From Sphingomonas sp. HMP6 (GTDB lineage: Bacteria; Pseudomonadota; Alphaproteobacteria; Sphingomonadales; Sphingomonadaceae), in contig NZ_AP022672.1 in the NCBI RefSeq assembly GCF_013374095.1, positions 2,621,501-2,685,500 on the forward strand: a stretch of 64,000 bases of DNA. Direction: 5' to 3'. The notes beneath the pieces are model-generated. The model saw only the letters and a program-made list of their open reading frames with translations, ran no database searches and had not been told where the DNA came from. Below are positions 36,338 to 59,723 of the stretch, in pieces. Numbering within the stretch: the stretch's first letter is position 1; each line of letters begins with the position of its first letter. A program made the translations under genes and the position numbers.

Positions 36338-36412
<75 letters not shown>

Positions 36413-36820: not shown

Positions 36821-38233
36821 CTAGAAAGCGTTCCAGTCGTCCCCACCGGCGGGCACAGCGTCGCGGGTCGCCTGCGAGGCCAGCGCGGTGATCGGCGAGC
36901 GGTAGGGCGTGGGCGATTTCGTCCTGGCGGCCGGGGCGGCGCGCTGCGCTTCGGCCTTGCGCCGACCGGTCGATCCCGTGTCGATCGTGAACATCGCAGT
37001 CTGGTCCGATAGCGCGCTGACCTCACTGGTCAGGTTGCGCGCGGCGGCAGACGTTTCCTCCACCATTGCCGCATTCTGCTGGGTCGACTGGTCCATCGCG
37101 CCAATCGCCGCCGAGATCTGCGTGATCGCTGCGGATTGCGCGGTGGCATCGTCAGCCATAGTGCCCAGCAGTTTGTGGACCACGGCGACATCGCCCGAGA
37201 TATTGGCGAGCGCAGTGTCGACGCGTCGCACCGCGTCGACCGCCGAGCCGATTTCACTCTGTGTCACGGTCAGCTGATCGCGTGCGCGCTTGGCCTCTTC
37301 CTCGGCGCGCATGGCAAGCGCGGAGACAAGGTCTGCGACGACCGCGAAGCCACGCCCGGCATCGCCCGCGCGACCGGCCTCAACCGCAGCGTTCATCGCC
37401 AGGACGCGCGTCTGGAACGCGATCTTGTCGAGCCCCTCGATCACGCTGTCGATGCCCTTTGCGCTATCGCTGACGCGGCCCATCGCCTGCACCGCTTCCT
37501 CCGCCGTGACGCGGCCGCCATCCACAGTCGCGATAGCCTGATCGGCGCGCGTGACCGTTTGTGAGGACGAGAGCGCGGTGGCCTTCAGCCGACCATCGAT
37601 TTGAGTCAGCGCGGCGCTGGTTTCCTCCAGGCTGGCGGCATTGCTTTCGGTGCGGCGCGCGAGATCCTCGGATGCTTGAGCGATTTCAGCGGACCCGGTG
37701 CGGATGCCGTCGGCGCTGTGGGCGACCCCGCCGATCAACTCGCGAAGATTGATCAACGCTGCGTTGAAACCATTTTTCACTTCGACAAAGCTCTCGGGGA
37801 AGTCTGCGGTAATGTCGGCCGACAAGTCGCCGCCTGCGAGCTCGTTCATCTTCACGCCGATCGCCGCGACAACCTCTTCATTGATTGCCGCGAGGCGGTT
37901 GACCGCATTGGCGGTTTCACGGAACGTGGCCATGGCCGTCGTCATCCGTCCGACACAGTCGGTATAGTCGGTGAAGGCGATTGGCGACGCGAGATCGCCA
38001 GCAGCCAGGCCTTCCATGCGGACGACGGTCGCAACATAGGGATCCGCGATCATGCTCCGGAATTTCATGCCCAACAGGCAGGAAATCACCGTCGCCGCCA
38101 CGCCGACCGCAAAACCAAACACCCCCGGCAAGAGCGACGCCAGCGCCACAATTGCGGTGAGACCGATCAACGTACCATATGAAATCAGCAACTTGGCGCG
38201 AATAGGCGTTGCCTTGACGAACGACTCGAACAT
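36821..38233 (-). CDS. Methyl-accepting chemotaxis protein
   Basis: A 470-residue chemoreceptor. The N-terminus has two close hydrophobic spans (about 13-55) without a periplasmic sensing domain, then HAMP-like segments (residues about 60-150). The signalling hairpin has the conserved tip [20 protein letters not shown] followed by [20 protein letters not shown]. The C-terminus, DDWNAF, resembles the CheR-docking pentapeptide. It likely senses cytoplasmic or membrane-energy cues. It is cargo of the tRNA-Thr-bounded segment. AAAGGA lies about a dozen bases before the ATG. Confidence 0.92.
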
Positions 38234-38323
38234 GTAAACCGGGTTCCTTTGAGTGACACACTCGACGATCCGGATTCATTTTAGGAATGATGGATGCAAT
38301 AACGGCGCTAGGCCGGTAATTAT

Positions 38324-38470
38324 TTATGTTACGGTTAATTTTAGACTCAGTACTGATTGCAGAAACCAGAGTATGAGGATTGCGGCGATGCAGATGGTGG
38401 ACATGAAGGTGTATGCACAGCGGTCGTAGCGTGTATGGATCCACCGCCATTCCTTAAGCCTACCGAACAT
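38324..38470 (-). pseudogene. IS5-type transposase remnant (C-terminus only)
   Basis: 48 codons reading MFGRLKEWRWIHTRYDRCAY then TFMSTICIAAILILWFLQSV to a TAA stop. This is the recognisable end of IS5-family transposases: the FGRLKDWRRIHTRYDRCA-like block, last catalytic-region residues and a hydrophobic tail. The rest of the gene and both inverted repeats are absent. It lies inside the tRNA-Thr-bounded segment, about 90 bases upstream of the chemoreceptor start. Confidence 0.8.
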
Positions 38471-38546
38471 AAGAGTATTCAATAACATACTTATAGTGTT
38501 AGGTTAATGTGCCTATAGCGTAGAATTGGCTACAAAACCGATCGCG

Positions 38547-38593
38547 TTGGTAAGCCTGAGGTCGTAAGTTTAATCCTCACCGGCAGCACCATT
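38547..38593 (+). repeat. Degenerate copy of tRNA-Thr 3' end (att-like direct repeat)
   Basis: 47 bases matching the tRNA-Thr gene from its anticodon loop (TTGGTAAG) through the CCA and the following TT, with three mismatches. It is in the same orientation as the tRNA gene 2.2 kb away. This is the arrangement left when an element integrates into a tRNA 3' end. The T-stem is disrupted (GTAAG/CTCAC), so it is not itself a tRNA. Confidence 0.8.
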
Positions 38594-38870
38594 CTTTTCG
38601 ATAGCTTAACGAAAAATCTCCCCGGCCGGGGTCGCAGGCACGTTACCCGGATAACAACAGGATAAGAATGCGCTGGGTCCACTACTGGGTCTCGGTCTTC
38701 GAATGGCGCTCGGCGCTTGCACGACGGCTTGATCCGTTGGTGACCCGTGGATCGCTGCAGGGCCTAATCAGCAACTATCGCTTCAAAGCAAACTCGCCGA
38801 GTGCGAAAATCGTAACGACCAATACCGGTTTTGCTGTGCAGGCCAATTGGGAGGGCCTAATGTCCACGTC
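38594..38870 (+). other. Intergenic region before yqiJ
   Basis: About 280 bases. A 73-codon open frame (38668-38889) lacks recognisable content and overlaps the next gene, so I do not call it. The promoter of the yqiJ-yqiK pair probably lies here, but no clear -35/-10 stands out. Confidence 0.4.
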
Positions 38871-39497
38871 ATGGTCATGCTGCTCCTGACGTCTGCTTAT
38901 GCCCCGTTTATGGTCGCGTTTGTCGTGATGATCGGCATTGGCTTGATCGAGGCGATTGGCCTTGGTTTGGGTGAACTTGGCGTCGACGCCGATGCCGGCC
39001 TCGATGGAGCCGATGGTTCGGGCGGGGTGCTTGACTGGCTCGGCTTGGGGGCGAGGCTGCCGATCTTGATTTGGCTAACGTCTTTGCTTGGCTGCTTTAC
39101 GATCGTTGGTGTGGCGGTGCAGCAGACCTCGGCCGCTATTACGGGTGCGCCGCTGTCCGCGGGGTTCGCCGCAGGCATCGCGCTCATCGTCGGCGGTTTC
39201 ATCAATGTGTTCGCGGCCCGTGGCCTTGCCCGGATTATGCCGAGCTACGAATCGACCGTCATCTCGCAGGGCGACTTCATGCGCCAGCGCGGCACGATCC
39301 TGGAAGGCGTTGCCAAGCGTGGCCACCCGGCGCGCGCCAAGATCATCGATCAGCACGGCCAGGCCCATTTCGTGATGGTCGAGCCACACCACGACACCGA
39401 CGTCATTGCCGAAGGTGAAACGGCGCTGCTTGTCCGCAGGGATGGCAGCATCTTCTTTGTTCTGCCCGACGCGCCGACCGCGCTGCGTCCGGTCTAA
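38871..39497 (+). CDS. YqiJ-like OB-fold membrane protein (DUF1449)
   Basis: A 208-residue membrane protein with three hydrophobic segments (about 4-28, 60-85, 92-115) and a soluble C-terminal OB-like domain (MRQRGTILEGVAKRGHPARA, AHFVMVEPHHDTDVIAEGET, LLVRRDGSIFFVLP). This matches YqiJ, the NfeD-like partner of the flotillin YqiK, whose gene follows after 27 bases. It is thought to shape membrane microdomains. The start is uncertain: ATG 38871 is chosen, with GGGAGG about 16 bases upstream. Confidence 0.8.
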   Translation: MVMLLLTSAYAPFMVAFVVMIGIGLIEAIGLGLGELGVDADAGLDGADGSGGVLDWLGLGARLPILIWLTSLLGCFTIVGVAVQQTSAAITGAPLSAGFAAGIALIVGGFINVFAARGLARIMPSYESTVISQGDFMRQRGTILEGVAKRGHPARAKIIDQHGQAHFVMVEPHHDTDVIAEGETALLVRRDGSIFFVLPDAPTALRPV

Positions 39498-55513: not shown

Positions 55514-57575
<2,062 letters not shown>

Positions 57576-57665
57576 CTTACTCCGCCACCTGTGAGCCGGG
57601 ACGGAATATTTGTAATTGCGCTAAACTCGATCTATCGTTCCTAACTTGTTCCTTAGGAGGATGCG

Positions 57666-58568
57666 ATGGTTGCGCAAGCATTTGGTGATGAGCACACGCG
57701 TCAGAAACTAGAGACCGTAGAGAAATGCCTTTCGGTCTATACAACCGCACTAAAGAGACAAAATTTCGAGTTGTTGTATGTCGACGCCTGTGCAGGATCC
57801 GGCTCATCAATACCAAAATCAGCGCTAGCCGAGCCGCAGGCCGATAGTGGGCAGACGAACCTGCTTGGCGATCCAAAGCCGGTAATTGACGCGGACCAAA
57901 TTATTGTTGGATCAGCGCTTCGCGCGCTGAAAGTGCAGCCCCATTTTGATAGGTATCTTCTGAATGACGTAAAAAAATCAAACGTCGCTGCGCTCAGGGC
58001 AGCGATAGATGCGGATTTCTCTCACCTTAAAGACCGTATTCAGCTAACTCGGTTTGATGCCAATGAGATGCTGACCGACTTATGTAAGCGAACAAACTGG
58101 AAGGCGACGAGAGCAGTCGTTTTCATCGATCCCTTTGGCCTACAAATAAAATACTCGACTCTCGAAGCCTTGGGGAAAACCGGTGCGGTCGATGTTTGGT
58201 ATCTTGTTCCTGTCTTCGCCATGTACCGACAAATTCGCCAAGACGGTGGCGTTTTGGAGGATGGAGGACGTAGCGTCGACGAGGCGCTGGGCACTGAAGA
58301 ATGGCGTAACGTCGTCGCAACCGAGGAAAAGGGGCAGATCGATTTGTGGGGTAACAGCCAAGCCGTTTCAAAACGGGCGGTCGACGTGAAATGGTTTGAA
58401 ACAGTTGCAAAGGAGCGATTGAAGGCGGCGTTTGACGGCCGGGTTGTTGATCAAGTGTTGCCCTTAGGGCGAAGCGGGCTTCACGAATTTTCCCTAATGT
58501 TTGCGTGGGCAAATCCGAGCGATCGAGCTAGGTTGGCATCGAAACTAGCGAGCGCAGTTTTGAGATAA
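57666..58568 (+). CDS. tcmP: Three-Cys-motif partner protein TcmP
   Basis: A 300-residue protein of the family named for its pairing with three-cysteine-motif (Gp37/Gp68) proteins. The fold looks like a Rossmann methyltransferase relative: LLYVDACAGSGSS (37-48) resembles a SAM motif I, and VVFIDPFGLQ (151-160) resembles a motif IV. The intervening region has GSALRAL, YLLND and RFDANEML. Catalysis is not shown. AGGAGG lies just before the ATG. Base composition is clearly less GC-rich than thiC or the VOC gene, indicating transfer. The stop overlaps the next start by one base. Confidence 0.85.
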   Translation: MVAQAFGDEHTRQKLETVEKCLSVYTTALKRQNFELLYVDACAGSGSSIPKSALAEPQADSGQTNLLGDPKPVIDADQIIVGSALRALKVQPHFDRYLLNDVKKSNVAALRAAIDADFSHLKDRIQLTRFDANEMLTDLCKRTNWKATRAVVFIDPFGLQIKYSTLEALGKTGAVDVWYLVPVFAMYRQIRQDGGVLEDGGRSVDEALGTEEWRNVVATEEKGQIDLWGNSQAVSKRAVDVKWFETVAKERLKAAFDGRVVDQVLPLGRSGLHEFSLMFAWANPSDRARLASKLASAVLR

Positions 58569-59326
58569 TGTCGGGAACCTCCGAGATCGAATGGACCGAT
58601 ATTACGTGGAACCCGGTTGCGGGGTGTAGCGTCGTGTCCGCGGGCTGTACTAATTGTTATGCAATGCGGATGGCGGCTCGCCTGCAGGCAATGGGCCATC
58701 CTAAATACAAGGGGACGATTCGGAGGAGCGGCAAACGCAGTGTTTGGACTGGCCAGGTCAACATCGATCCATCGACATTGAATGATCCGATAAAGTGGAA
58801 GCGTGGAAAACGAATTTTCGTAAATTCGATGTCCGACCTCTTTCACGACAACGTATCAACCGCTTTCATTCAAGCTGTTTGGTCAACGATGGAGCAGTGC
58901 CCTCAGCATCAGTTTCAAGTTCTGACAAAGCGCCCTGAAAGAATGGCAACTATGTTTGCTTTGGGCGAACTCCAGCAGCTGCCTCAGGTGTGGATCGGTA
59001 CGTCGGTGGAAAGCGAAGCCGTTGTCGACAGGATCGCGCACCTCGTTGCCATATCAGGCATGACCCGATTTGTATCTTTCGAGCCATTGATTGGCTCGGT
59101 TGGACTTATAGACCTGCGCGGAATTGATTGGGCGATTGTAGGAGGTGAGTCCGGTCCGGCCTCGCGGCCAATGCAAATTGAGTGGGTCGAACAGATTGAG
59201 AAGGCGTGCCGGAGAGCGGGAACTGCCTTTTTCTTCAAGCAGTGGGGCGGACGTAATAAGAAGGCGGCTGGGCGCAAGCTTCGGGGCCGCACATACGACG
59301 AGTATCCGCGCGAACTAGCCGCCTGA
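58568..59326 (+). CDS. Gp37/Gp68 family (DUF5131) three-cysteine-motif protein
   Basis: A 252-residue protein beginning IEWTDITWNPVAGC with three cysteines at 20, 27 and 30 (CX6CX2C), a spacing that could bind an iron-sulfur cluster as in radical-SAM-like enzymes. Further family blocks are RIFVNSMSDLFHDNV (82-96), FQVLTKRPERM (116-126), FVSFEPLIGS and WAIVGGESGP. First known from phages; function unknown. It is coupled to tcmP (TAATG) and shares its low GC. Together they form a two-gene insert between thiC and the VOC gene. Confidence 0.85.
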   Translation: MSGTSEIEWTDITWNPVAGCSVVSAGCTNCYAMRMAARLQAMGHPKYKGTIRRSGKRSVWTGQVNIDPSTLNDPIKWKRGKRIFVNSMSDLFHDNVSTAFIQAVWSTMEQCPQHQFQVLTKRPERMATMFALGELQQLPQVWIGTSVESEAVVDRIAHLVAISGMTRFVSFEPLIGSVGLIDLRGIDWAIVGGESGPASRPMQIEWVEQIEKACRRAGTAFFFKQWGGRNKKAAGRKLRGRTYDEYPRELAA

Positions 59327-59327
59327 T

Positions 59328-59723
59328 TTGCCCCACATCGCTCACATCACGCTCGTCGTCCGCGACTATGACGAGGCGCTTGCTTTCTACATCGGCAAGC
59401 TCGGCTTCACTTTGGTCGAGGATACGTACCAGCCCGAGCAGGGCAAACGGTGGGTAACGATCCGCCCGCCCGGCGCAGCCAAAGACGCCACCACGATCCT
59501 CCTCGCCCGCGCCACCACGCCCGAACAGGCCGCCGCGATCGGCAACCAGACCGGCGGTCGCGTCTTCCTGTTTCTGGCCACCGATGATTTCGCGCGCGAT
59601 CATGCCGCCTTCACCGCCGCCGGGGTCGAATGGGTCCGCCCGCCCGCGCGCCACGCTTATGGCGAGGTCGCGGTGTTTGCCGATCTGTACGGCAATCACT
59701 GGGATCTCGTGCAGTTCTGCTGA
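59328..59723 (+). CDS. VOC (glyoxalase/bleomycin resistance) family protein
   Basis: A 131-residue single-module pair of beta-alpha-beta-beta-beta motifs: HITLVVRDYDEALAFYIGKL, then GGRVFLFLATDDFARDHAAF and VAVFADLYGNHWDLVQFC, with His/Glu-type metal positions. The only plausible start is TTG at 59328, two bases after the low-GC insert ends. This suggests the insertion replaced the native upstream region. The substrate is unknown. Confidence 0.85.
   Translation: MPHIAHITLVVRDYDEALAFYIGKLGFTLVEDTYQPEQGKRWVTIRPPGAAKDATTILLARATTPEQAAAIGNQTGGRVFLFLATDDFARDHAAFTAAGVEWVRPPARHAYGEVAVFADLYGNHWDLVQFC

Follow-up and report, generated by a model that had tools for sequence, protein, structure and literature searches.

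What kind of gene pair interrupts the chromosome of Sphingomonas sp. HMP6 between thiC and a VOC-family gene, and what might it make? The pair lies in a stretch of 64,000 nucleotides (contig NZ_AP022672.1, positions 2,621,501 to 2,685,500; here called the window) and consists of TcmP, which NCBI names after its three-Cys partner, and that partner, a DUF5131 (Gp37/Gp68) protein. An initial annotation, made by a model from the letters alone, had seen in it a transferable enzyme pair, perhaps modifying nucleic acid or acting in phage conflict. The locus belongs to an already catalogued candidate kind, PDC-M41 of PADLOC, and we tentatively read it as a mobile two-enzyme module that would modify a base with S-adenosylmethionine (SAM) only, in conflict with phages. 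The parts of this reading differ in strength. The two enzyme classes, a methyltransferase (TcmP) and a radical-SAM enzyme (DUF5131), are very probable; a nucleic acid base is a somewhat probable substrate by analogy, and a role in conflict is about as probable from the genomic context.

TcmP scored 122.8 bits against NCBIfam model TIGR04474 (cut-off, 53), and its gene adjoins that of a three-Cys-motif protein, as the family definition specifies. DUF5131, which we take to be COG4422, scored 307.8 bits against PF07505 (cut-off, 28.9). In PADLOC-DB v2, the two adjacent genes matched both components of PDC-M41 (M41A, 230.8 bits, E value of 8e-69; M41B, E value of 1.6e-102), and a pairing first recognized by family name is thus known further as a database entry. 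DUF5131 also matched M30B of PDC-M30 (3e-95), and TcmP gave 38.5 bits with M30A. The genes and motifs on which the argument rests are as follows.

57666 to 58568, plus strand: TcmP, 300 amino acids, predicted class I SAM methyltransferase, PADLOC PDC-M41A
57783 to 57803, plus strand: TcmP motif I, DACAGSG, residues 40 to 46, putative SAM-binding loop
58128 to 58139, plus strand: TcmP motif IV, DPFG, residues 155 to 158, putative catalytic loop
58568 to 59326, plus strand: DUF5131 (Gp37/Gp68), 252 amino acids, predicted SPL-like (spore photoproduct lyase-like) radical-SAM enzyme, PADLOC PDC-M41B
58625 to 58657, plus strand: DUF5131 three-cysteine motif, C20-x6-C27-x2-C30, followed by Y31

A Foldseek search with the structure model of TcmP (predicted local distance difference test score, 85) placed RlmJ at the top (1.6e-9), and VIA scored Trm1 at 15.5 and RlmJ at 14.6, less than 1 unit apart and hence a tie. 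A profile of 56 TcmPs found RlmJ among PDB sequences at an E value of 6e-5; PDB sequence searches with the single proteins or with a 65-amino-acid piece of TcmP returned nothing useful. Both blocks that had suggested a SAM methyltransferase are present in the protein, and motif IV reads DP[FY]G in 78 of 80 genomic copies (the window and 79 other loci, with one fragment, L205, left out) and in 24 of 25 viral copies (with 2 weak matches of 27 left out); the exceptions read DPFA or DPYA. DP[FY]G is a Trm1 motif. TcmP matched no Pfam family, that of Trm1 included, at an E value of 0.1, and motif IV of RlmJ is DPPY (PMC3814359). Because TcmP carries DP[FY]G rather than DPPY and lacks a Trm1 profile match, we placed it in neither family. 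The model and the conserved motifs make it well supported that TcmP is a class I methyltransferase nearest in fold to RlmJ and Trm1, both RNA-base methylases, and by its sequence it is best described as RNA-base methylase-like.

DUF5131 was predicted with high confidence to adopt the SPL type of fold, and its model contains the radical-SAM barrel. The CX6CX2C motif, from which an iron-sulfur, radical-SAM-like enzyme had been proposed, has its codons at the expected places and is near-invariant in the family; the only further nearly invariant cysteine in the family alignment (A3) is C214. Judged by the canonical combination of CX3CX2C and a PF04055 match, DUF5131 falls outside the radical-SAM superfamily. 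It also matched no Pfam SPL family, its profile retrieved nothing useful from PDB sequences, and its score of 70 bits against radical SAM mobile pair protein A is far below the cut-off of 355. Our claim is that DUF5131 probably works like a radical-SAM enzyme, not that it is a canonical member of the superfamily. One relative of DUF5131 (L187), on a very long branch, lacks the three-cysteine motif and still lies 2 bp from a convergent TcmP. The same structural comparison bears on the idea that DUF5131 alters a nucleotide in the manner of viperin, that TcmP methylates the product, and that phage polymerases are poisoned by it. Viperin was ranked below SPL (11.2 versus 13.4), and the nearest folds of TcmP are those of RNA-base methylases; we consider this idea quite improbable.

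Loci in which TcmP has a different neighbor speak to the class of the partner. A scan of the genome collection yielded at least 528 TcmP loci, of which the best 80 (designated L with a number) were compared; four of these are cyanobacterial (L156, Planktothrix; L163, Nostoc; L168, Lyngbya; and L175, Okeania), and DUF5131 is absent from the fetched stretches of all four. The neighbor of TcmP is there a divergent gene, 112 to 174 bp away, for a protein of 322 to 655 amino acids with a canonical CX3CX2C motif. PF04055 matched both of the partners scanned (L156, 3e-10; L168, 5e-9), and close relatives are named "SPL family radical SAM protein" or, by JGI, "DNA repair photolyase." Against NCBIfam, the L156-type partner scored 81 bits with the PA0069 family, 61 with Rv2578c, and 51 with radical SAM mobile pair protein B, all below cut-off. 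Inteins prefer conserved active-site motifs, and insertions of the same sequence kind split the cysteine motif before its third cysteine in L168 (7894 to 9861) and L175 (7894 to 9849); with a LAGLIDADG intein match in the L168 insertion, the one scanned, both appear intein-like. Since the profile comparison between DUF5131 and the cyanobacterial partner was weak, we link the two by this swap and not by sequence. Together with the predicted fold and the near-invariant cysteines, the swap upholds the radical-SAM-like reading of DUF5131, and the close adjacency of the genes, combined with the exchange of one radical-SAM partner for another, suggests that the two enzymes act on a common substrate.

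The names given to the cyanobacterial partner also bring in repair, in which the SPL-like enzyme would reverse a base lesion made by a phage or toxin and the methyltransferase would complete or cap the reversal. The nearest fold is that of SPL, which repairs DNA by direct reversal, and a gene for a DarT-like base-modifying toxin is found at the thiC-VOC site of one relative. A lesion-making enzyme was, however, not recognized among the recurrent neighbor clusters inspected, and we know of no lesion reversal that needs a separate methyltransferase. SPL moreover uses a fourth catalytic cysteine as the H donor (C141 in B. subtilis; PMC3742179), for which DUF5131 offers no demonstrated equivalent. 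We regard repair as fairly unlikely.

We next consider how the two genes are arranged. In 69 of the 80 loci, TcmP and DUF5131 are no more than 300 bp apart, with TcmP first in 35, DUF5131 first in 1, and the two genes convergent in 33. The remaining 11 comprise 3 loci with DUF5131 more than 1 kb away and a long TcmP in between and 8 without DUF5131 in the fetched stretch (the four cyanobacteria, three stretches that end less than 300 bp from TcmP, and L196). The most unusual feature of the system is an antisense overlap: in 31 of the 33 convergent pairs, the 3′ ends overlap by 4 to 80 bp, and of the other two, one pair abuts and one leaves a 2-bp gap. Open reading frames (ORFs) were called mechanically at the first start codon, so that start positions and codirectional overlaps of >20 bp cannot be relied on; for convergent pairs, the 3′ overlap is set by stop codons alone and is unaffected. 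On viral contigs, 23 of 27 adjoining pairs (2 of the 27 being weak matches) were convergent, and all 23 overlapped. Annotated records of Rhizobium, Agrobacterium, Pseudochrobactrum, a Synechococcus phage, and three Gordonia phages likewise contain convergent overlaps of 4 to 46 bp; in a rough control, counted by hand in nine of these annotated records (L273 to L275, L278 to L281, L283, and L284), 3 of 21 other convergent neighbor pairs overlapped. The convergent share among the 80 loci, and with it the frequency of the overlap, may be inflated, since viral TcmPs, 24 in number and mostly convergent with DUF5131, were part of the query for the genome scan.

A minimum of 4 orientation changes was needed on a quick TcmP tree with all rows and also on the DUF5131 tree; the number fell to 3 with adjacent rows only and to 2 without L187. 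Adjacency has thus been retained through a few orientation flips. In the Gordonia phage BaxterFox (L282, 3501 to 4250), the ORFs of TcmP and DUF5131 overlap by 4 bp; the DUF5131 gene is unannotated there, its place in the annotation being taken by two small reverse-strand ORFs. Four loci (L152, L189, L215, and L272, the last being S. meliloti pSymA) carry two TcmPs, one short and one long, alongside just one DUF5131. A scan of five long TcmPs for motif IV gave one match (L189, LDQYG); the corresponding sequence in the translated S. meliloti copy is LDQCG. The long TcmPs of pKLC102 and S. meliloti are codirectional with DUF5131.

The pair in the window looks foreign beside the two genes that flank it, and its borders are as follows.

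55662 to 57575, plus strand: thiC ORF, upstream border of the variable site
57576 to 57665, plus strand: spacer of 90 bp with a Shine-Dalgarno-like AGGAGG ahead of the TcmP ATG
59328 to 59723, plus strand: VOC-family gene beginning with TTG, downstream border of the variable site

The placement between thiC and the VOC gene is as first described, and the VOC gene does begin with TTG; a single base (59327), not two, separates it from the DUF5131 stop codon. The TcmP stop and the DUF5131 start share one base in TAATG, an overlap that four of the nearest relatives share (L137, L138, L140, and L142). The guanine-plus-cytosine (GC) content of the pair is 52.6%, compared with 65.3% in the remaining window, and 2 of 624 sliding windows of equal length were as low, both overlapping the pair. 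At third codon positions, the GC fractions are 0.52 for TcmP and 0.60 for DUF5131 versus 0.85 for thiC, 0.82 for VOC, and 0.82 for a gene further on. The lower GC content that had drawn attention to the locus is therefore real, and it recurs elsewhere: in 62 of 65 loci with at least 6 kb of flank, the pair was lower in GC than its flanks, by a mean of 8.2 points. Elsewhere in the window, a tRNA-Thr gene (36338 to 36412) stands shortly before a low-GC stretch (38001 to 39000; 0.51 to 0.55 versus ~0.65), possibly a second insertion. A scan gave no sigma-70-like promoter in the 90-bp spacer, terminator candidates were limited to two minus-strand sites, equal to chance expectation, and a search for site-specific border repeats gave two-copy matches only. 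A perfect 12-bp direct repeat (57438 and 59278) lies inside genes and was taken as chance. thiC genes often carry a thiamine pyrophosphate riboswitch; none reached the Rfam gathering score in the whole window, the region upstream of thiC included.

TcmP of the window type was found in none of 120 further genomes sampled from the genus and thus in the source genome alone among 121; five genus genomes gave weaker matches (33 to 41% identity, one a fragment). With the TIGR04474 model, 11 of 61 relatives were above cut-off and 7 of 37 in the genus (the source genome included), and DUF5131 was close by in 11 of the 12 TcmP loci so found, two of which share one DUF5131. The nearest TcmP copies, in Sphingomonas-named genomes, are 89% (L137) and 84% (L138) identical. 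DUF5131 occurred in 32 of 299 genomes sampled from the phylum (the source genome included) and matched 159 phage and 407 plasmid records; the TcmP/DUF5131 family as a whole is found on phages, on plasmids, and in many phyla. This patchy distribution, with a composition unlike that of the host, bears out the earlier view that the pair is transferable.

We also compared the site itself. Of the 121 genus genomes, 116 carry thiC and 38 a VOC homologue (E value of 1e-20 or better); 20 genomes other than the source have a closer VOC (68 to 84% identity). One of the 20 (G106) was dropped from the site comparison because VOC and thiC lie on different contigs. The other 19 relatives all have VOC on the strand of thiC and downstream of it, 0.68 to 8.1 kb away with differing contents. 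Homology is lost at the thiC 3′ end or close to it and returns with the start of VOC. At the VOC start position, 20 relatives have ATG (12), GTG (4), TTG (1; L259), or another codon (3). YoeB-like toxin sequence occurs in 7 of the 19 sites (one Pfam confirmed), and single sites hold DarT, DUF3800, NYN, or DUF3644; a Pfam scan assigned a family to 4 of 10 cargo proteins and none to the other 6. Two relatives (L258 and L260) carry at this site a protein of ~296 amino acids without an assigned family, 85% identical between them. We looked for a strictly empty thiC-VOC site and found none; since the smallest interval is 0.68 kb, we speak of a variable site and not of an empty one.

The position after thiC raises the question of whether the pair serves thiamine synthesis or radical-SAM housekeeping. 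Of the 80 loci, 9 have thiC in their fetched flanks: upstream and on the same strand in seven Sphingomonadales (L137 to L143), and in L148 (Hyphomonadaceae) and L203 (Brevundimonas), where the pair is of the convergent type and DUF5131 follows thiC by 79 to 81 bp on the same strand. L138 has the identical order thiC-TcmP-DUF5131-VOC; VOC was not found downstream of the pair in L137 or in L139 to L143. L203 and the window fall in different large clades of the TcmP tree, which suggests more than one arrival of the pair near thiC. thiC is missing from the fetched stretch of the other 71 loci, 19 relatives carry different cargo between thiC and VOC, and thiC is far more widespread in the genus than window-type TcmP; an accessory role to thiC is very improbable.

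A setting of phage conflict is suggested by several individual loci. In L162, L178, and L180, the pair is enclosed by restriction-enzyme-like and DNA-methylase-like genes (in L180, the one tested, the BPTD_3080 restriction enzyme model gave 1,205 bits and adenine methylase models remained below cut-off), and in L181 both such genes lie on one side of the pair. On Agrobacterium pAt1, the pair sits in an island with integrase, restriction, helicase, and NTase-HEPN genes. In a part that bears no annotation in its record, S. meliloti 1021 pSymA carries DUF5131 and a long TcmP and, on the opposite strand, a short TcmP with an 845-amino-acid helicase-like ORF; these genes matched PADLOC M30A, M41A, and PDC-S28, the last with 1,020 bits for the helicase-like ORF (L272, 10080 to 12614). 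hna is located on pSymA, and a table of NolR-affected genes by putative transcription unit lists at its end hna together with TcmP (SMa2243) (PMC12445080). On these grounds we take the helicase-like ORF to be hna (SMa2245), and at least this PADLOC candidate may have a counterpart for which phage resistance has been published.

Phage genomes add to this setting of conflict and also offer a different beneficiary, with the pair marking phage or plasmid nucleic acid so that this nucleic acid escapes host nucleases or persists in lysogens. In four Gordonia phages (Fairfaxidum, BaxterFox, Easley, and Angelique), the convergent pair lies between integrase/metalloprotease genes and the immunity repressor, with TcmP directly downstream of the repressor and on its strand; TcmP of Fairfaxidum scored 109 bits with TIGR04474, and those of the other three scored 90, 76, and 27 bits with our own TcmP model. 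The many phage and plasmid records that match DUF5131 fit such a function, as do the DNA methyltransferase genes near DUF5131 in RcapNL and TChen. The window copy, however, is bordered on both sides by chromosomal genes, the interval between them contains no phage gene, and a sequence-recognition domain was not detected in the short TcmP. We judge service to a prophage, or antirestriction, to be unlikely.

We return to base modification in phage conflict as the preferred reading. A nucleic acid base is favored as the substrate because both nearest folds act on DNA or RNA bases, and RNA is slightly favored because of the kin of TcmP. In such a scheme, TcmP would transfer a methyl group to a base, and DUF5131, with a [4Fe-4S] cluster on C20, C27, and C30, would generate a 5′-deoxyadenosyl radical acting on the same base, either activating a carbon before methylation or attacking the methyl group afterward. 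The mark could then protect or reprogram the RNA (or DNA) of the host during infection or lysogeny. A bolder version, to which we give little credence, is that the pair is a minimal SAM-only route to an undescribed hypermodified base, with one enzyme methylating the base and the other radicalizing it or its added methyl group, in the manner of Trm5 and TYW1 in wybutosine synthesis, that this base serves lysogens and hosts as an immunity mark, that its chemistry has been rebuilt with other radical-SAM partners, and that the antisense overlap couples expression or keeps the genes inseparable.

Several observations weigh against this reading. The RlmJ-type DPP(Y/F) occurs in none of the 80 genomic TcmPs (window included) and none of the 25 viral ones, PF04055 gave no match to DUF5131 at an E value of 0.1, and the fourth catalytic cysteine of SPL has no assured counterpart. 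When DUF5131 was compared by hhalign with the cyanobacterial radical-SAM proteins, in two sets, the E values were 0.007 and 0.006 at a probability of 5 to 6%; the aligned parts were in order, yet the alignment is by itself no evidence of kinship. DUF5131 is also met without TcmP. TcmP of the window type matched 2 phage records versus 159 for DUF5131, TcmP was found beside DUF5131 in 27 of 80 viral loci, the 2 weak matches included (with a search model built on window-type TcmPs, which can miss other types), and DUF5131 occurred without TcmP by hidden Markov model in 3 of 13 phage or plasmid records (RcapNL, TChen, and the Sphingomonas NIC1 plasmid). Genes near the pair matched 272 PADLOC families and far genes 106 (136 genes each from 34 loci; no significance test applied). 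Three near genes matched type III methylase models and three matched type III restriction models, and far genes also matched defense models, namely, MADS (up to 4 genes) and type I methylase (2). The expected defense-island enrichment was thus found in direction but is modest, and our case does not rest on it. Finally, hna alone is reported to restore resistance (PMC12445080), which leaves its TcmP neighbor without a demonstrated part. PADLOC PDCs in general are candidates by "guilt by embedding" and mostly unvalidated (PMC10855318, PMC12988326), and we found no biochemical or phage assay of TcmP or DUF5131 in the open-access literature.

Among known enzymes, TcmP is alike in fold and profile (positions 29 to 188) to RlmJ, the 23S rRNA m6A2030 methyltransferase, and differs in motif IV; to Trm1, the tRNA m2,2G26 methyltransferase, it is similar in fold only. 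DUF5131 shares with SPL the barrel and a three-cysteine motif followed by tyrosine, with CX6CX2C in place of CX3CX2C. NCBIfam radical SAM mobile pair proteins A (TIGR04471) and B (TIGR04470; cut-off, 410) resemble DUF5131 and the cyanobacterial partner, respectively. PDC-M30, in which a long TcmP accompanies DUF5131 (e.g., in pKLC102), shares the DUF5131 family with the window. Its A models are ~370 amino acids long and five scanned long TcmPs measure 398 to 421, compared with 300 for the window TcmP, which falls outside that type; the long TcmPs of L152 and L189 carry a GMT-like winged helix-turn-helix domain, and those of L189 and S. meliloti have D-Q where the short TcmP has D-P in motif IV. 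In a study of 100 P. aeruginosa strains, 32 had a predicted PDC-M30, and the authors' grouping classed 68.8% of these 32 as phage resistant (PMC10855318); the three-Cys-motif partner term appears in tables of two further papers (PMC12445080, PMC12429752). PDC-M41 has the same two components as the window and is a PADLOC entry without a mechanism, to which the present analysis adds a fold, a partner swap, and an orientation pattern. Both TcmP and DUF5131 are widespread, with copies on phages, plasmids, and genomic islands; should the pair make a new base, a two-gene route would be added to nucleic acid modification in phage-host conflict. A likely chemistry, candidate catalytic residues, and a predicted product, a mass-shifted nucleoside needing both enzymes, make this candidate directly testable, and the structure-based chemistry, partner swap, and convergent overlap render the locus more testable than its database label.

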